From: Clostridioides sp.
Lineage (GTDB): Bacteria; Bacillota; Clostridia; Peptostreptococcales; Peptostreptococcaceae
Direction: 5' to 3'
NCBI GenBank assembly: GCA_031261505.1
Contig: JAISJN010000008.1
Span: 434,001 to 498,000 of the forward strand
Length of the DNA stretch: 64,000 bases
Part shown: positions 1,674-63,573 of the stretch, in pieces
Numbering within the stretch: position 1 is the stretch's first letter
Layout of the letters: each line of letters opens with the position of its first letter
Program-made: the position numbers and the translations under genes
Notes under the pieces: generated by a model
Database searches by the model: none
Seen by the model: the letters and a program-made list of their open reading frames with translations, nothing else
Told to the model about the DNA's origin: nothing

Positions 1674-4346
1674 ATGAATAATGATAACAACGATAACAAA
1701 AACAAGATTAGAAGAAAAAGAGTAAGTAGTTCTTCTAACGGTACTAATACACCTAGGAACACAGCTGGCACTGGCGCTAAACCAAGTACAAGCGAAATAA
1801 AGAGAAAAAGTAATTCCAGTGAAACAAAGAGCGTAAAACCAAGCGCAAATAATAAGAAGAAAAAGAAAAAACCTACAGGTAAATACAGAATAATCAGAAA
1901 TGTAGGTATAGCTCTTTTAGTGTGTTTCGTGGTAGGATGTGCAACAGCTACAGGAATCGTATTCGCCTCGCTTAAAAATGTACAACCAGTGACTGAATCC
2001 ACACTCGATAAGAAAGTTCACCTAACAACAAAAATTAACTATGCAAACGGTGAAAGCTTGTCACTAGCTCCAAACATAACAAAGAGGACTCCAGTAGACC
2101 TAGACGAGATGTCAAAATACCTTAGAGAGGCTATCATCTCAATCGAGGACGAGCGTTTCTACGAACACAACGGGGTCGACTACAAGGGTCTCGCTAGATC
2201 CTTGGTTAGGACTGTAACTGGTACAAAACAGGGGGCTAGTACAATACCTATGCAGGTGTCAAAAGTATTATTGACATCTAGAGAACAGACCGTTACTCGT
2301 AAGATAAAGGACCTGTACTACGCCAATGAGATGAGCAAGACTATTAAAAAAGATAAAATACTTGAAATCTACTTAAATACTTTCTTCGTAGGTCAAGGTC
2401 TCTCAGGTGCTGAAGCCGGAGCGAGAGGTTATTTCGACAAGGATGCAGCCGACTTAACACTAGCTGAATCCGCTCTACTAGCTGGATCTACTAAAAATCC
2501 AAGCAGATACTCAGCTTACAAGACTTCAAAACTCAACGGAGATGAAACTAAACAGGAATTAGAACACAGAGTGCTGCTATTCCCAAATACCAAAGAAGAT
2601 AAGTTGGATGAGCCAACTCAGATCGAGTTCGATATGATAGAAAAGATGAGCGATTGGGAATTGATCAATTCCGATGAGTACAAACAACTTAAGGCTGCTA
2701 CTATGGTAGTAAGAAAGGCAGTTCCAAACGAGGAAGCAAAAGAAAGAAGAAAGACGGTTCTAGACAAGATGCTCGCTCTCAAGAAGATTTCTCAATCAGA
2801 GTACGCAACAGCTGTCAGCGAACCTATAAACATAAAACTACCCGACAAGAGAGAAACCGTTGCTTCATCTGTTGAAGACTATATCACAGACGAGGCTATA
2901 AAAGCATTGGTAGACCAGGGTAATACCGAAGAAGAGGCGAAAAACTTATTCTACAACGGCGGTTTGATAATCAACACTACAATAGACCCTAAGATTCAAA
3001 AGTCTATTGAAGAAGAATACGCTAAGAGCTCGAACTTCCCACATTCAATTATGGGAAAAGACGGGGTCGTTCAACCTCAGTCTGGTATGGTAATCACAGA
3101 CTACAGAAACGGTGAAATAAAGGGATTGATCGGTGGTAGAAACATAAAGAGCAGAAGAGCTTACAACAGGGCGATAAACCCTCATCAACCAGGATCTACT
3201 ATAAAACCACTTTCTGTATATACAGCTGCAATAGACACTATGGAAATAACTCAGTCCACTAGGATAAGCAACGCTAGAGGTGGATATAAGTTTGCAGTCA
3301 CCAAAAAATGGAACCCACATACTTCAAGTTCTGAAACTAGCGGCTGGAGCGTTCGTAAGGCCGTTGAAAAATCTTCAAATACGATAGCTGCAAAGACTGC
3401 TGAAATGCTTGGAGATACACCTGAAGACTGCTATGACATAATGATAGACTACTTGGAAAACTTCGGTATAAGTACGCTAAAGGTCAGTGCTCTCGACGAG
3501 AAAAAACAGAACGATAGACAGTTCCCTTCACTTGTACTCGGAGGTATGACAGTTGGTATATCACCGCTTGAAATGTCTTCAGCCTATGGAGCCTTAGCAA
3601 ACGGCGGTGTCTACGTGAAACCATCTGTACTCTCTACAATAACTACCTATGACGGACAGTTGTTATTCAAAAATTCCCGTGAAGAGAGAAAGGTTGTAGA
3701 CCCAGCCGTTGCCTACGTTATGACGGATATGCTAGAAGGTACCATAAAAGAAGGTGGAGCAGGAAATGCTAAATTGGACAACGAGATGACCGCTGCTGGT
3801 AAGACAGGTACAACCAATGGTGGTAAGGATATCTGGTTTGCAGGTTACACACCTTATTACTCATGTGCGACATACATGGCAGACGACTCAAAAAGCGTCT
3901 CAGATGGAGACGGCGGATACACGCGTAGGAGTCTCGGTTTCGGTGGTGACGCATGTGCGACACTTTGGTCGAATGTAATGTCAAAGGTACACAAGAACTT
4001 AGAAGTAAAGGACTTTGAAGTTCCAGACAATATATACTTTACTAGGATCAATCTACTTGACGGAGGTAGACAGTCTACCGGATCAAAGGCAGCATTTATA
4101 GACGGAACATCTCCATCTAGAGTAAGTTCTCAACCATCTCCAGCACAGACTGCACCTAAACAGCCAGAAAATGGTAATAACGGAACTGACGAAGAGAAGC
4201 CAGCTCAAGGAAATGGCGGTGGCAATAATCCTCCAGCCAACAACGACGGCGGTGGCGCAAGTCCTGGAAACGACGGCGGTGGAAACAATCCAGCTCCACC
4301 AGCTGACGGCGGCACTCCTCCAGCCAACGGCGGTGGCACTCAGTAG
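1674..4346 (+). CDS. Class A penicillin-binding protein (transglycosylase/transpeptidase, PBP1A family) with Gly/Asn/Pro-rich C-terminal tail
   Basis: 'EDERFYEHNGVDYKGLARSLVR', 'GASTIPMQVSKVLL', 'SSNTIAAK', 'KTGTTNGGKDIWFAGYTP'; tail GNGGGNNPPANNDGGGASPGNDGGG... Confidence 0.95.
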   Translation: MNNDNNDNKNKIRRKRVSSSSNGTNTPRNTAGTGAKPSTSEIKRKSNSSETKSVKPSANNKKKKKKPTGKYRIIRNVGIALLVCFVVGCATATGIVFASLKNVQPVTESTLDKKVHLTTKINYANGESLSLAPNITKRTPVDLDEMSKYLREAIISIEDERFYEHNGVDYKGLARSLVRTVTGTKQGASTIPMQVSKVLLTSREQTVTRKIKDLYYANEMSKTIKKDKILEIYLNTFFVGQGLSGAEAGARGYFDKDAADLTLAESALLAGSTKNPSRYSAYKTSKLNGDETKQELEHRVLLFPNTKEDKLDEPTQIEFDMIEKMSDWELINSDEYKQLKAATMVVRKAVPNEEAKERRKTVLDKMLALKKISQSEYATAVSEPINIKLPDKRETVASSVEDYITDEAIKALVDQGNTEEEAKNLFYNGGLIINTTIDPKIQKSIEEEYAKSSNFPHSIMGKDGVVQPQSGMVITDYRNGEIKGLIGGRNIKSRRAYNRAINPHQPGSTIKPLSVYTAAIDTMEITQSTRISNARGGYKFAVTKKWNPHTSSSETSGWSVRKAVEKSSNTIAAKTAEMLGDTPEDCYDIMIDYLENFGISTLKVSALDEKKQNDRQFPSLVLGGMTVGISPLEMSSAYGALANGGVYVKPSVLSTITTYDGQLLFKNSREERKVVDPAVAYVMTDMLEGTIKEGGAGNAKLDNEMTAAGKTGTTNGGKDIWFAGYTPYYSCATYMADDSKSVSDGDGGYTRRSLGFGGDACATLWSNVMSKVHKNLEVKDFEVPDNIYFTRINLLDGGRQSTGSKAAFIDGTSPSRVSSQPSPAQTAPKQPENGNNGTDEEKPAQGNGGGNNPPANNDGGGASPGNDGGGNNPAPPADGGTPPANGGGTQ

Positions 4347-4469
4347 AACTAGACTCAGTAATTCGGAGTGGCACTCAACACGTGCTTCACCTTATAAATA
4401 AGATACACGCTATATAAGAGATAAGAGATAATAGATAAAATATATTTAAATAGGCTCAAATATGTTCAA

Positions 4470-4507
4470 TAAAAAAAGCAGTGGAAATTAACCCACTGCT
4501 TTTTTAG
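4470..4507 (+). terminator. Intrinsic terminator after the PBP gene, possibly bidirectional
   Basis: aaaaaaagcagtggaaattaacccactgctttttta. Confidence 0.85.
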
Positions 4508-4580
4508 TATATATTAAGCTCAAGCCACTGTTTTTGTAAAACGTAGCTCTCTTTTCATTATAACTCTCTTTTCATTCAAC

Positions 4581-4955
4581 TTAAGGTTTTGGTTTCGGGT
4601 TAAATATAACTGCCATTATATATCCAAAAATTATAGCAACAGCTATACCTCCAGCCGTCGCCGTTATCCCACCTGTAAAAACACCCATGAGTCCATTTTC
4701 TTCAATGCCTTTTTTTACTCCCTGTGCCAAGGTATATCCAAAACCGACTATCGGAACCGTAGCTCCAGCTGCTCCGAATTCAACTAACGGGTCGTAAATT
4801 CCTAGAAACGATAAGACGACCCCGCTGGTTACGTAGCTCACGAGTATATACGGAGACTGTATTTTAAATCTATCCATAAGAATCTGTGCCAATAAACAGA
4901 TGAGACCGCCTACGATAAAAACTCTTAAATACAACATTTCTTCAACTCCAATCAA
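4581..4955 (-). CDS. spoVAE: Stage V sporulation protein AE
   Basis: 124 aa membrane protein 'FIVGGLICLLAQILMDRFKIQSPYILVSYVTSGVVLSFLGIYDPLVEFGAAGATVPIVGFGYTLAQGV'; synteny after SpoVAD. Confidence 0.92.
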   Translation of the reverse strand: MIGVEEMLYLRVFIVGGLICLLAQILMDRFKIQSPYILVSYVTSGVVLSFLGIYDPLVEFGAAGATVPIVGFGYTLAQGVKKGIEENGLMGVFTGGITATAGGIAVAIIFGYIMAVIFNPKPKP

Positions 4956-13058: not shown

Positions 13059-13243
13059 TATTTCTTATTTAACACAAAAAATATATCTATAACACATTTA
13101 TCTCAAGTTATAAACTTTTTTATCGATTTCTTTCACAAATTTATGTATTCTACATATATTAATACGTGTAGGATTCTAATATTCTTAGATTAAAATCTTA
13201 CGTCAACGTTAAATCTATATTGATTTCATTAGGAGATGATATA

Positions 13244-14437
13244 ATGAGTTTTAATAACTGTAACAACCATAGACCTGACAATGATTCACGTCGCCCCTAT
13301 TATGACAGAGATGACGACTACTCTAACTCAGGCTCTAACAGACCTAACTATAACCAGCACCGTCCTCCATTCTTTGATTTATGTGGCTACGACTGCTGTG
13401 ACCCGTGTTGCCGCGGCCCTAGAGTATACTATATAGAATGTATGAGTCCAACGCAGCCTACTCAACCAACACAACCTACTCAGCCAACTGAACCTACTCA
13501 ACCAACGCAACCTACTCAACCGACTCAACCGGTATTTGCCTGCCCTCCAAATATTTATATAGGCAATAGCCTCTCAAACAACATAAGCATAATAAACACA
13601 AATACAAATACGGTGACATCTACAATATCACTTGCAAATCCACCACTTGGAATATCGTGGAATCCAAACACCAACCTGCTCTACGTAGCTACTCCAGCGT
13701 CGAACACGCTAGAGGTAATAGACGCTAATACAAATAAAATTGTAGCTACTATTCCTGTAGGAATTACACCAGGTATGGCAAAGGTAAATCCAAATACAAA
13801 TTTAATCTATGTGCCTAACAGCGGTTCTGACAACGTGAGCGTAATAAATGGTTCTACTAATCAGATTATAGCTACTATTCCAGTCTCTACCTACCCACAT
13901 GGACTATTAGTAAATCCAAATACAAATCTAATATATGTATCCAATCTTACTTCACATAATATAAGTGTAATAAGTGGTGCTACTAATCAAATTATAGCTA
14001 CTGTCGCTGTAGGAAGCGTACCTCTTAATTTTGAAATAAATACAAATACAAACTTACTGTATGTAGCAAATAGAGGTTCTGACAACGTAAGCTATATAGA
14101 TACGGCTACAAACCAGATCGTCGGTACTATTCCTGTAGGAGAGTACCCAACAGGTGTCGACGTCGATCCAAATTCAAATATGATATATATATCCAATCTT
14201 GAATCTGGCAATATAAGCGTTATATACGGTCCTACCAATACTATTGTGGATACGATTCCTGTAGGTTCTTCACCATATGGAATAGACGTCAATCCATATA
14301 CAAGACTAGCGTATATAACAAATTTGAGAGACAATTCCGTAAGCGTTATAGATACTTCAACTAATAAGGTTGTAAAGACAATTCCAGTCGGATCTTCTCC
14401 GATGTACCTCAGCACATGTATGTGGACCGACAAATAA
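13244..14437 (+). CDS. YVTN-type beta-propeller repeat protein with Cys-rich N-terminus and (TQP)n linker; candidate spore or cell surface protein
   Basis: 'DLCGYDCCDPCCRGPRVYYIEC', 'PTQPTQPTQPTQPTEPTQ...', then about seven repeats of the form 'NPNTNLIYVPNSGSDNVSVINGSTNQIIATIPVG'. Start chosen at MSFNNCN; the supplied ORF starts at 13220. Confidence 0.85.
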   Translation: MSFNNCNNHRPDNDSRRPYYDRDDDYSNSGSNRPNYNQHRPPFFDLCGYDCCDPCCRGPRVYYIECMSPTQPTQPTQPTQPTEPTQPTQPTQPTQPVFACPPNIYIGNSLSNNISIINTNTNTVTSTISLANPPLGISWNPNTNLLYVATPASNTLEVIDANTNKIVATIPVGITPGMAKVNPNTNLIYVPNSGSDNVSVINGSTNQIIATIPVSTYPHGLLVNPNTNLIYVSNLTSHNISVISGATNQIIATVAVGSVPLNFEINTNTNLLYVANRGSDNVSYIDTATNQIVGTIPVGEYPTGVDVDPNSNMIYISNLESGNISVIYGPTNTIVDTIPVGSSPYGIDVNPYTRLAYITNLRDNSVSVIDTSTNKVVKTIPVGSSPMYLSTCMWTDK

Positions 14438-15262: not shown

Positions 15263-15579
15263 TGAATTTCCTCCTTAAAATAATATTTTGATGGCTATTT
15301 ATACAAACCATCCAATCCAGATTATTGTTAAATCACTTAATCACTTCTGTAAAAGATTTGTATTTTTGACTTACTGTGTTAATAACATAATACAATAATT
15401 TAATCATACATGTCAAGCATTCTGTATGTATTTTTATTGTTTTTGATAATAGCCTGTGCTCCGGTTAAATGGTAAACGTTTGCGATGACGATTGCTTACA
15501 ATGACATTTATCTAAAGTTATTAATGATAGATTCACTGCTTATGGTATAATTTAAGGGCAAGCACATTAATTTTTTGAG

Positions 15580-16323: not shown

Positions 16324-16673
16324 ATAAGTATATGTATAAATTCTAATTATTATGGAAAATTTTAATCCCTTAAGTTGAAAAAGATGTCCCCCACCTCTTT
16401 ATGTAGCAGGGCATCTTTTTTTCATAGTTTTTAATCAAAAGTGCTAAATTTGTTCTTCTTAGTTTGAACTTTACATTTTACTGAAAAAGTTTTAAAAAAC
16501 AAGAAAATATTAATTTGTATATTGTATTTTTATTGTTTTTTTTGTCGCTTTTTGCTATAATATAAGAAGGTTATCCCCCTGATAACCCTAGTTAGTTAAT
16601 ATATCTATTCCCAATCCCCTTTTTATAAATTTTTTTATAAAGAACACTGGTTAATAGCGAAAGATTAACTAAA

Positions 16674-16763: not shown

Positions 16764-16822
16764 TTCTCATTTCGCGTGTACTAAGAGCACTCATTGAAAT
16801 CTTTGAATCACAGTTTAATATT
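16764..16822 (+). repeat. Dispersed intergenic repeat, 3'-half copy F
   Basis: tctcatttcgcgtgtactaagagcactcattgaaatctttgaatcacagtttaatatt aligns with the 3' half of copy A. Confidence 0.55.
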
Positions 16823-17365: not shown

Positions 17366-17490
17366 AGACCAATCCTTACCTTCATATTCATATTTTCTAT
17401 ATTTCCATACTGTGATTATATTAAATTAATTATCATTATCAATAATTATTTATTGTATTTTAGTTTTTTTTATTTATAGATGATAATTTA

Positions 17491-17594
17491 TAACTTGAGA
17501 TAAATGTCCCTCACCTCTACAGGTGGCGGGCATAAATCTCATTTTAGTGTGAGTCAAATCTCCCACTGAAAGCGTTGAATAGCCATTTAATACT
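17491..17594 (+). repeat. Dispersed two-hairpin intergenic repeat, copy A
   Basis: taacttgagataaatgtccctcacctctacaggtggcgggcataaatctcattttagtgtgagtcaaatctcccactgaaagcgttgaatagccatttaatac. Confidence 0.85.
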
Positions 17595-20176: not shown

Positions 20177-20415
20177 AAAAAAGTCTCTCAGCCATTAGGC
20201 CAAGAGACGAATTATATCCGCGTTACCACTCTCATTGATAAGAAAACTTATCCTCTCAATCCCTTAAGGCGGGCTACCTATTATCATACTTAATTTCCGA
20301 TAATAATCTCCAAAGTTCTCTTCACATAATGCTATACCATCGGGCTCACACCAACCCCCGACTCGCTGAGATGTCACACCAGCTACTCTCTTCTTCATAG
20401 ACTTTAATTATTTAT
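20177..20415 (-). promoter_or_regulatory. T-box riboswitch upstream of the amino acid ABC transporter (specifier tentatively AGA/Arg)
   Basis: Minus strand: 'gaagaagagagtagctgg...gggggttggtgtgagcccgatgg...gtgaagagaactttggag ... aatgagagtggtaacgcgg ... gtctcttggcctaatggctgagagactttttt'. Confidence 0.85.
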
Positions 20416-20950: not shown

Positions 20951-21004
20951 AATATTTAAATGGTGATTCAATGTCTCAGTGAGGGTTTACCCCTCACTTC
21001 AAAC
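20951..21004 (-). repeat. Dispersed intergenic repeat, 3'-half copy E
   Basis: Reverse complement gtttgaagtgaggggtaaaccctcactgagacattgaatcaccatttaaatatt matches the second hairpin and 3' tail of copies A and B. Confidence 0.6.
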
Positions 21005-23592: not shown

Positions 23593-23695
23593 TATTTAAA
23601 TGCTTATTCACCAATTTCAGTTTGGGATTTCAACCACATTAAAATGAGATTTATACCCGACACCTATAGCGATTGTGAGATTTATCTAAAGTTAA
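23593..23695 (-). repeat. Dispersed two-hairpin intergenic repeat, copy C
   Basis: Reverse complement taactttagataaatctcacaatcgctataggtgtcgggtataaatctcattttaatgtggttgaaatcccaaactgaaattggtgaataagcatttaaat aligns with copies at 17491 and 63270. Confidence 0.8.
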
Positions 23696-23696
23696 A

Positions 23697-24512
23697 TTAT
23701 CTGTTCACTTCAGATTTTGCGAACGCTACTGTTCCGATTACCAAAAACATCAATGTAAGTCCCGTCAAAACCGCTGCATTTACAAATGGATTGAAGAGTA
23801 CTACCTTTGAATACTCTTTAGTTCCAGCATAAAATACCGACCTTGCCAAGTCCAGACTGTATGTCATAGGCATCATCCTGCTCAGCACGTACAGCACTCC
23901 CTTTGAATGGTTGATTGGAATAATTGCACCACTCAAAAACATCTGAGGCATAACGACGATACTTACCAATATATTTGCGACCTTATCGCTCTTAACGAAT
24001 CCAACTATAGCCATACCAACCGCACCTGCTGATAGACATATAAAAGGAGATAATGCCAAGAACGATAATATCTGGCTAAAACTGAAATTTATCCTCATGA
24101 TCAACGCCACGATTATCGTTCCGACTAGCTGTAATAATGCTTGAAACGACGCTCCTAATATCTTTCCTATTACTATCGAATATCTAGAAACTGGTGATAT
24201 CATCATCTCTTGAGTGAAATCTTGCGTTCTATCTTGAATTAACGAGGTAACCCCCATTGTAGTCCCCATGAACAAGAGATTTACCATCATCCCTATCATC
24301 ATATACTGGCCATAATCAAAGCCTAGACCTCCAGCCATATTCTGTGACAAACTTCCTCCAAGCATTCCCATCATTATTATAGGCATGAGTAAATTCATCG
24401 CCAACATCTGAGGTGTTTTTACTGCGTACGTTATATCTCTAGCAGCTACTGTAACTACTGCGTTTATTTCATGAGCTATCCTTGTCATCTCAATTTTACC
24501 TCCGTCCTTCAT
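23697..24512 (-). CDS. ABC-2 type transporter permease
   Basis: 'MGVTSLIQDRTQDFTQEMMISPVSRYSIVIGKILGASFQALLQL', 'MPQMFLSGAIIPINHSKGVLYVLSRMMPMTYSLDLARSVFY'. Confidence 0.92.
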   Translation of the reverse strand: MKDGGKIEMTRIAHEINAVVTVAARDITYAVKTPQMLAMNLLMPIIMMGMLGGSLSQNMAGGLGFDYGQYMMIGMMVNLLFMGTTMGVTSLIQDRTQDFTQEMMISPVSRYSIVIGKILGASFQALLQLVGTIIVALIMRINFSFSQILSFLALSPFICLSAGAVGMAIVGFVKSDKVANILVSIVVMPQMFLSGAIIPINHSKGVLYVLSRMMPMTYSLDLARSVFYAGTKEYSKVVLFNPFVNAAVLTGLTLMFLVIGTVAFAKSEVNR

Positions 24513-24560
24513 TTCTTAATTATTTATTCTTAATTTCCCATTCTTTATTGCTTGATCGCT

Positions 24561-24640
24561 TATTCTCGATTACTTAGTCTTAATTATTCATTCTAGATCG
24601 CCTATTCTCGATTACTTAGTCTTAATTATTCATTCTCAAT
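24561..24640. repeat. 42-bp tandem repeat, 2 units, between the ABC exporter genes
   Basis: tattctcgattacttagtcttaattattcattct at 24561-24594 and again at 24603-24636; degenerate flanking units. Confidence 0.85.
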
Positions 24641-24687
24641 CGCTCATTCTCGATCTCTCGATTGCTTATTATTAAGAATAGTTTTAA

Positions 24688-27532: not shown

Positions 27533-27711
27533 AGCAATCCCTCCTACGCAATATATACTTAAATTATATACTGCAATTGTAAACTATGCATAAATTCACC
27601 TGATTTAAATTCAATTGCATACGTTTATTTTACACTTCAATCTCTGTTTTGCATATAAATTAAAAAAGACGCCCTCCACCTATAGTTGTGGGGGACATCT
27701 TCTTCAAATTA

Positions 27712-29142
27712 TTAAAGAGTTTTTATCTTTGTATTATATACATCTTTTATAAAGTACAGGCAAAGCAGTAGACTGACTAGCTCTGATACTGGGAATGCCC
27801 ACCAAACTGCACTTACATTGTTTGTTACCCTTGCCAATATCCATGCTGTTGGAAGCAGGACGACCAACTGACGAGTTATAGAAATAAACATACTTCTAAG
27901 TCCGTACCCGAGTGCTTGGAATACTGATACTAAAACTATACAGAATCCTGCAAACATGAAGTGTGTACTTATTATTCTCAGAGCAGTACTTCCTAAGACT
28001 ACCATATCATTGGATGCATTAAACATTCTAAGTAGGGTGTTAGGGAATGTCTGGAATATCAAGAACCCTATAAACATAACTGATATAGCATACACGAGAC
28101 TCAATTTAATAGTCTTCACGATACGCTTAGGATTTCTCGCCCCGAAATTATACGCTACTATAGGCACCATTCCATTGTTTAGACCGAACACTGGCATAAA
28201 TATAATACTCTGGAGCTTGAAATATACTCCGAATACCGCTGTTGCTGTCGGCGTAAAAGATATTAATATCTTATTCATGCTATAGGTCATAAGAGATCCT
28301 ATCGACTGCATCACCATTGTCGGTATACCTACCGCGTAGATTTTTTTGATTATTTTTAAATCAGGTCTAAATCCTTTAAATGAAAGTGGAACTTCATCGT
28401 TTTTCTTAATGTTAAAATAAAATGCAATGAGGGCCGCAAAACACTGACCTATAACTGTTGCTATAGCAGCACCCCTTACACCCATAGCCGGTACCCCTAG
28501 AAATCCAAATATAAATATCGGATCCAGTATTATGTTGGTAACGGCTCCAACTGTCTGTGAAATCATTGAATACATCGTTTTACCAGTTGAGATAAGTAGT
28601 CTTTCAAAAATGACTTGACTAAATATTCCTATTGAAAATATACATACAGTTGATAAGTACTCAACACCGTATTTGATAATCTCCGGTGAACTAGTTTGAG
28701 TCTTAAAGAATGGTTCCGCTAGAAATATTCCTATAAGCACAAATACCAGTGAACTCATCCAGGCTAGAAATACTCCGTTTACCGCCACTTTTTTTACGCT
28801 TTCAAAATCCTTTTCGCCTAGACTTCTGGATAGGAATGAATTTACCCCTACTCCGGTTCCAACCATTACAGCTGTTATTAACATCTGTACCGGGAACGCC
28901 AATGAAACTGCTGTCAACGCATTTTCACTTATCTGTGCGACAAATATACTATCGACAACGTTGTAGAGCGCTTGCACCAACATGGATATCATCATTGGTA
29001 CCGACATTGTAAGAAGTAGCTTATTTATCGGCATGGTCCCCATTTTGTTCTCCTGAGGTTCTATCTCAGGTGTGTTCTCTTTGTTAATTTTCATATAAAT
29101 ATACTTCTCCATTTTACAATATATTCCTACATTATTATACAA
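27712..29142 (-). CDS. MATE family efflux transporter
   Basis: 'PINKLLLTMSVPMMISMLVQALYNVVDSIFVAQISENALTAVSLAFPVQMLI', 'GVGVNSFLSRSLGEKD'. Confidence 0.95.
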   Translation of the reverse strand: MYNNVGIYCKMEKYIYMKINKENTPEIEPQENKMGTMPINKLLLTMSVPMMISMLVQALYNVVDSIFVAQISENALTAVSLAFPVQMLITAVMVGTGVGVNSFLSRSLGEKDFESVKKVAVNGVFLAWMSSLVFVLIGIFLAEPFFKTQTSSPEIIKYGVEYLSTVCIFSIGIFSQVIFERLLISTGKTMYSMISQTVGAVTNIILDPIFIFGFLGVPAMGVRGAAIATVIGQCFAALIAFYFNIKKNDEVPLSFKGFRPDLKIIKKIYAVGIPTMVMQSIGSLMTYSMNKILISFTPTATAVFGVYFKLQSIIFMPVFGLNNGMVPIVAYNFGARNPKRIVKTIKLSLVYAISVMFIGFLIFQTFPNTLLRMFNASNDMVVLGSTALRIISTHFMFAGFCIVLVSVFQALGYGLRSMFISITRQLVVLLPTAWILARVTNNVSAVWWAFPVSELVSLLLCLYFIKDVYNTKIKTL

Positions 29143-48199: not shown

Positions 48200-48272
48200 T
48201 GATTTCAAACACAAGCTGAAATTAAATAAATGCCCACCACATGTAGACTTGGTGAGCATTTATCTAATTTTA
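48200..48272 (-). repeat. Dispersed intergenic repeat, partial copy D, abutting the stop codon of the HD-domain gene
   Basis: Reverse complement taaaattagataaatgctcaccaagtctacatgtggtgggcatttatttaatttcagcttgtgtttgaaatc. Confidence 0.65.
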
Positions 48273-56107: not shown

Positions 56108-56345
56108 TTAAAAAAAGCCCTTCATCCCAGCTAGGGACGAAAGGCTATATTTCGCGGTACCACCCTAGTAGCTTAAAATTCTTCAAGCCACTCGAAAACT
56201 TAACGCGTTTTGACGTGCAAACCTACTTAGTTTCAGCCCGCATACTCCAGAGCGAAACTTCATTTGAGTCCTCCGAAAACACTTCCAGCCTAGGTGTTTA
56301 TCTCTTTGCGGTGGATTATCAAAATACTTGACTCCTTCATAGTAT
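56108..56345 (-). promoter_or_regulatory. T-box riboswitch of pheST, UUC specifier plausible
   Basis: Minus strand: '...aatgaagtttcgctctggag...agggtggtaccgcgaaatatagcctttcgtccctagctgggatgaagggcttttttt'. Confidence 0.95.
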
Positions 56346-56374
56346 TAAATATGTTGATATACTTCAAAAGTATA

Positions 56375-63269: not shown

Positions 63270-63372
63270 CTATTAAATAGTTATTCAACGATTTCAGCGG
63301 CAGATTTCAACCAGCACTGAAATGAGATCTATACACTCCACCTATATAAGTGGTGGAATTTACCTCAAGTTA
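63270..63372 (-). repeat. Dispersed two-hairpin intergenic repeat, copy B
   Basis: Reverse complement taacttgaggtaaattccaccacttatataggtggagtgtatagatctcatttcagtgctggttgaaatctgccgctgaaatcgttgaataactatttaata. Confidence 0.85.
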
Positions 63373-63573
63373 TCGCTACATTTAAGGTCATTTCTCAGAC
63401 CATATATATTATAGTACAAAAGTATTTTAAACACAATGCGTGTAAACGTTAATTCTAGACTAATAATTTAACTACTAAAAACTTAGATTGTGATTGGGCG
63501 GTTTAGGATATCTTTCTTAAGTTAAATTGCGATTCACACATTAAATGTCAAGAACCAATTTCAAAAAAACAAA

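Follow-up and report, generated by a model that had tools for sequence, protein, structure and literature searches.

What is the sequence of about 100 nt that recurs between the genes of this Clostridioides genome, and by what route did it reach its present positions? The window, the stretch of 64,000 nt that was analysed, holds three full copies at 17489-17590 (+), 63272-63373 (-) and 23596-23694 (-), which score 104, 75 and 70 bits with the family profile and 124.5, 95 and 84 bits with a covariance model; the top profile score in thirty first-order-shuffled windows was 8.8 bits. The initial annotation had located these three copies correctly and had set their ends 2-4 nt off. The intergenic query copy consists of the element proper (CTTGAG...CATTTAA, 17494-17590, +) and, directly 5' of it, the host motif TATAA (17489-17493, +), which flank conservation and a nested empty site indicate to be the insertion target. 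The copy at 63272-63373 is flanked by a ribosomal L20 gene and a trkH-like gene, and an ABC-2 permease gene (23697-24512, -) has its stop codon just before the copy at 23596-23694 (neighbours by Pfam in both cases).

The window also holds incomplete copies. Profile matches bear out the three proposed fragments at 48201-48266 (-; hairpin 1 side, profile positions 9-72, 31.8 bits), 20956-20998 (-; hairpin 2 and right tip, 18.3 bits) and 16764-16819 (+; hairpin 2 remnant and right tip, 16.6 bits). Further matches comprise a left tip with hairpin 1 only at 27662-27712 (-; 26.0 bits), a left tip with a hairpin 1 fragment at 16371-16414 (+; 20.2 bits) and a lone left tip at 13096-13112 (-) that matches the tip pattern TATAACTTGAGATAAAT exactly. 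The probable partial copy at 15463-15521 (-) is indeed kin; comparison with other short forms identifies it as a short-form element with identical tips and a different, mini-hairpin-type interior (ATAACTTTAGATAAATGTCATTGTAAGCAATCGTCATCGCAAACGTTTACCATTTAA), rather than as a fragment of the same body. As had been noted, the repeat encodes no transposase. Placement within intergenic DNA or at its edge, which had been claimed for all copies, holds for most of them; in the genome, 18 of 150 copies share more than 30 nt with an ORF of 70 aa or longer, ORFs being called on length alone.

The search of the genome and its relatives that had been suggested as a check yielded at least 150 copies in the 2.14-Mb genome (E <= 6.4e-4; covariance model built from 29 copies), with more beyond the 150 that were scored, which is above chance. 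Full-length copies alone make up ~0.7% of the genome (about 15 kb of 2.14 Mb). Their median identity to the consensus is 79%, and the closest pairs reach 98%; near-identical copies lie, for example, at C8:38769, C8:8902, C11:8082 and C16:387. No copy was found in any of the 60 relatives searched, four of them congeners. A 19-nt core, contained in 27 of the copies examined in this genome, gave a single exact match in 85,462 other species genomes, a collection in which the records nearest the source genome are possibly not covered; this match, in an unrelated bacterium, extends over 19 nt only between unrelated flanks and was set aside as chance-like. A 22-nt match in a congener was likewise discarded, its surrounding sequence being unrelated. 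No element was found in the phage collection, the plasmid collection or viral contigs, no streptococcal genome of the scanned collection carries an exact match to the core, and the searched literature text contains none of the motif sequences. The repeat is probably an element that multiplied in one species, which is proposed with the same confidence as the mobile-element reading set out below, and its confinement to that species may make it a strain marker.

The family consensus, TATAACTTGAGATAAATGTCCCCCACCTCTACAGGTGGCGGGCATAAATCTCATTTCAGTGGGGGTTGAAATCCCCCACTGAAAGCGTTGAATCACCATTTAA, folds according to the two-hairpin plan described in the initial annotation, to which the RNA fold adds a short third stem-loop at the right tip. 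Hairpin 1 pairs TGAGAT..ATGTCC.CACCT with AGGTG..GGGCAT..ATCTCA, and hairpin 2 pairs TTTCAGTGGGGG with CCCCCACTGAAA. In the query copy, hairpin 1 (TGAGAT..ATCTCA; consensus fold z -8) spans 17496-17541 (+) and hairpin 2 (TTTTAGTG..CACTGAAA) spans 17542-17571 (+). Folding energies lie far below those of shuffled sequences for RNA on both strands and also for single-stranded DNA, for which the consensus fold gives z -7.3. Across 117 full copies, 66 of 86 doubly changed stem cells of hairpin 1 still pair, compared with 22±4 after shuffling, and 82 of 118 do so in hairpin 2, compared with 39±5. The shuffling ignores relatedness of the copies; a control in which the pairs were slid by 1-3 columns agrees with it, most of the covariation effect being lost. 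Structural covariation, proposed earlier as a test, is therefore strong in both hairpins. The right tip, GTTGAATAGCCATTTAA (17574-17590, +), is sequence-invariant among copies, may form a small hairpin and ends in the cleavage-like motif TTTAA. Its stem-loop TTGAAT-CACC-ATTTAA forms in the RNA fold, and the stem TTGAAT/ATTTAA shows no covariation across copies, its sequence being fixed.

Stable covarying stems could also belong to a host-beneficial RNA element, namely an mRNA stabiliser, a processing site or a 3'UTR element whose hairpins act in transcripts. Many copies lie directly after stop codons, and copies are co-oriented with their flanking genes (91 ++ vs 13 --), as such a function would lead one to expect. 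Against it stand the absence from all 60 relatives, the single chance-like core match elsewhere, the nested and tandem copies, and an interior that is freely replaced while the tips are kept. Furthermore, no T-run follows the hairpins; an intrinsic terminator was rejected on reading the sequence after hairpin 2 and after the right tip. No Rfam family exceeded its threshold, the best match to the element reaching 17 bits against a threshold of 60, and a known RNA family was rejected accordingly. A role of this kind is regarded as quite improbable. The only known RNA families that Rfam gave in the window are two T-box leader RNAs, at 20200-20407 (-; 130 bits) and 56130-56349 (-; 125 bits); several hundred bases separate the first of these from the element copy at 20956-20998.

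The ends of the element record how it entered its sites. Its tips are fixed in sequence, (T)ATAA^CTTGAGATAAATG on the left and TTGAATCACCATTTAA^ on the right. In the left flank, TA occupies positions 1-2 in ~84% of copies and TAA is present in ~95%. Beyond the left TA(TAA) and the right (TTT)AA the flanks are not conserved, and both boundaries are sharp. Copies sit 3' of TWTAA, mostly TATAA, which is often the stop codon of the gene itself, and an insertion adds about 97-99 nt ending in TTTAA. Relative to the same-strand upstream gene, the TAA of TATAA falls in the stop-codon frame 15 times and in the other two frames, those expected from interrupting a gene, 2 and 4 times (p=4e-4). From this 15:2:4 distribution of overlaps it follows that TATAA was usually there before insertion.

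At C18:148197 of the source genome (G000), a + copy is nested in the loop of hairpin 1 of a copy on the other strand. When the 99 nt that run from TATAA^ to TTTAA^ are taken out, the host copy is whole again end to end, with the usual 6-nt loop; this empty site represents one nested case in a single strain. Congeners offered no comparable empty sites, as the nearest has 63% protein identity at the tested gene and its intergenic DNA does not align. In addition, tandem copies are joined head to tail at TTTAA^CTTGAG with one shared TTAA (C21:186034/186131, C18:120818/120910 and C8:36674/36763). The element has therefore been mobile, as its dispersed, nested and tandem copies with sharp ends attest.

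Target-site duplications (TSDs), which had been suggested as a check, were sought and none was found: no convincing excess of duplications of 2-8 bp occurred at any offset tested, and a fixed TAA was the only candidate left. A duplication of TAA stays compatible with the sequence, because cutting after TAA on both sides would give the same product. Between the ends, no terminal inverted repeats (TIRs) occur beyond a 6-nt internal TAAATG/CATTTA. These observations bear on a DDE-type MITE or BOX-like repeat with eroded TIRs, a 3-bp TAA duplication (TAA|CTTGAG...CATT|TAA) and a lost insertion sequence. TAA does stand at both ends in most copies, and BOX and RUP of Streptococcus pneumoniae are similar in size and intergenic placement (PMC3049150). 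Nevertheless, the tips are not mutual inverted repeats even though each is 90-95% conserved on its own, and deviations of the left and right TAA are independent, a deviant left TAA being matched on the right in only 1 of 14 copies. This origin is judged rather unlikely. The initial annotation had suggested either an old family under structural constraint or a decayed MITE/REP-like element. Structural constraint is upheld by the 79% median identity and the covariation, and the likeness to REPs is upheld in how the element works, with hairpins, a conserved 5' target and neither TSDs nor TIRs; a decayed MITE in the strict sense is not supported, since the defining TIRs and TSDs were sought and none was found.

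Between these tips the interior varies and may hold hairpin 2, arrays of mini-hairpins or neither. Sequence beyond the window was read in stretches around copies, 592 kb in all. The 17-nt left tip (at most 3 mismatches) occurs 308 times, compared with 32 for the reversed pattern, which leaves ~276 left tips above background; the right tip occurs 157 times, compared with 6. Many left tips lack a full body and mark shorter elements with the same ends and different interiors. Forms of 50 nt are accounted for by a deletion between the CCCCCAC repeats of hairpins 1 and 2. Other short forms carry hairpin 1 alone between the tips, or one to several 16-nt units such as AAGTACTCACCAGCAC followed by AAGCAATCACCATTTAA, and each 16-nt unit can form a 5-bp stem with a 4-nt loop. 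Some copies combine hairpin 1 with a mini-hairpin array that replaces or follows hairpin 2. The pair of tips alone is constant, and the interior is exchangeable.

Tandem arrays of the 16-nt unit GTACTnnCCAGCACAA, with variable loop bases, were seen in the source genome at C1:40117-40181, C7:64723-64787, C12:63543-63607 and C20:36368-36447. They are mostly fused to a right tip, and the left tip is atypical or missing at C20 and C12. Dispersed copies in the same genome, at C5:2865, C15:36700, C18:150118 and C20:2222, make up a subfamily with CCACGCAATCACC or a mini-hairpin in place of ACTGAAAGCGTTGAATCACC.

The element thus chooses its target, inserts with no duplication found, lacks inverted tips and is structurally constrained. 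It is proposed, with somewhat more confidence than doubt, that it is a non-autonomous mobile element with a single-strand insertion signature of the IS200/IS605/REP type and a BOX-like modular body. The element would move as single-stranded DNA: an HUH-type enzyme, IS200/IS605-like or REP-transposase-like, would work in trans and recognise the element by its folded ends. It would cleave behind the left TATAA and behind the right TTTAA, and the strand so released would be ligated 3' of another TWTAA. Both tips and both cut sites can now be predicted to the base as TATAA^CTTGAGATAAAT on the left and TTGAATCANCATTTAA^ on the right. If hairpins 1 and 2 are the recognised structures, the compensatory changes in their stems are explained.

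IS200/IS605 enzymes bind subterminal hairpins, rely on a target next to the left end and work on the lagging-strand template (PMC6006769). Correspondingly, the element inserts 3' of a short conserved target (TWTAA) without a TSD and has subterminal hairpins at both ends, one on the left and, on the right, hairpin 2 and the right-tip stem; the shortest forms lack them. The left end departs from the IS608 layout in having no recognisable guide just 5' of a hairpin foot.

The orientation of copies was considered in relation to replication. Copies are polarised by contig (for example, 14/14 -, 9/9 + and 16/18 +), and 110 of 133 lie on the G-rich strand, as expected for insertion into a lagging-strand template. 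The overall strand bias of the copies (81-83%) is as large as the share of coding sequence on that strand (83%), and in a joint model the direction of flanking genes and contig polarity both contribute. Between oppositely oriented genes, 24 of 30 copies are on the G-rich strand (p=0.001 at one ORF threshold and as high as 0.03 at others); in 4-7 places where genes run against the G-rich strand, copies mostly follow the genes. Because the bias equals the coding share and copies follow counter-running genes, replication is not separable from transcription. Strand bias as proof of replication-coupled insertion was dropped once coding bias was used as a control, and it is suggestive only.

The enzyme itself was sought in the genome. 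Neither this genome, which is 96% complete, nor any of four congeners contains a Y1_Tnp (PF01797) gene, and the element tips are absent from the Y1 loci of relatives. A Y2_Tnp search gave no match, with its positive controls silent too. The earlier advice to look for autonomous partners thus led only to a lone TnpB gene, which is not bounded by element tips. This solitary, intact gene of 409 aa lies at C8:~3300-4700 (L240:1480-2709, -), and no TnpA was found in the genome. Y1_Tnp is missing from all five genomes of the genus (G000-G004), whereas it occurs in 35 of the 43 genera sampled among the relatives. Either the mobiliser has been lost, or it is encoded in the 4% that the assembly lacks, or it belongs to another kind; as it is no longer found in the genome, the family may be a fossil or may rely on an unrecognised protein.

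Two further readings dispense with a Y1 enzyme. Another duplication-free route, through a reverse-transcribed structured RNA or through a recombinase acting on folded single strands with an attC-like function, would agree with the lack of a TSD, the asymmetric ends, the folded structure, the strand bias and the genome without a Y1 transposase. The copies lie singly between ordinary genes and not in cassette arrays, which speaks against this route and led attC/integron sites to be set aside; we consider it improbable. The alternative is a class of elements mobilised as single strands in a lineage that lacks a Y1 transposase: recognition would be confined to the two short constant tips, the folded hairpin modules between them would be swappable cargo, and the mover would be an enzyme to which the transport of DNA elements has not so far been ascribed. 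This is considered unlikely.

For the favoured single-strand element with a modular body, comparison by description points to BOX of Streptococcus pneumoniae (boxA-(boxB)n-boxC) as the closest known system in architecture (PMC3049150). Both have many intergenic copies in one species group, constant ends with variable internal modules, strong predicted structure, a strand bias that mirrors genes, mutual insertion and a mobiliser that is not encoded (PMC3049150). BOX is reported with TIRs and target duplications (PMC3049150), whereas the present element has neither, and its modules are hairpin 1, hairpin 2 or 16-nt mini-hairpin arrays instead of boxB. RUP, a repeat of about 107 bp in S. pneumoniae, resembles the element in size and intergenic placement; it differs in having TIRs and target duplications, and IS630-Spn1 is hypothesised to move it (PMC3049150).

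By mode of insertion, REP/IS200-type elements are closest. Like REP, BIME and REPIN sequences, which are moved by TnpA-REP (RAYT, Y1 HUH), the element is extragenic, species-specific, hairpin-based and of high copy number. REPs measure 21-65 nt and carry a tetranucleotide guide on the 5' side of the hairpin (PMC6006769); the present element differs in its length of ~100 nt, its other tips and the lack of a Y1 transposase gene in the genome. On reading the consensus, no GTAG/CGTC-type tetranucleotide of REPs stands at any hairpin foot. PATEs and miniature IS200/IS605 derivatives are likewise non-autonomous, with a hairpin near the ends and duplication-free insertion behind a short conserved 5' target. 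With a length of several hundred bp, PATEs share their ends with a resident IS, whereas no partner IS was found for this element. No membership is claimed in BOX, MITEs, IS200 derivatives or REPs, because each time a defining feature was absent: TIRs and TSDs for BOX and MITEs, and a resident Y1 enzyme and the GTAG foot for IS200 derivatives and REPs. The element joins two traits that are usually separate, a BOX-like modular body and duplication-free insertion after TWTAA. To our knowledge, the movement of BOX-type modular repeats is not established, so that the fixed tips, swappable cores and nested empty site provide a testable substrate for it.

Two other kinds of repeat were observed in the window. 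The ORF at 13220-14437 contains six 126-nt repeats (13659-14388) with an NPNTNLIYV-like motif, beta-propeller-like in character, which are preceded by a linker of 9-nt Pro/Thr/Gln repeats. At 24514-24670, an AT-rich tandem repeat with a unit of ~14 nt (TTCTTAATTATTCA-like) lies between two genes.
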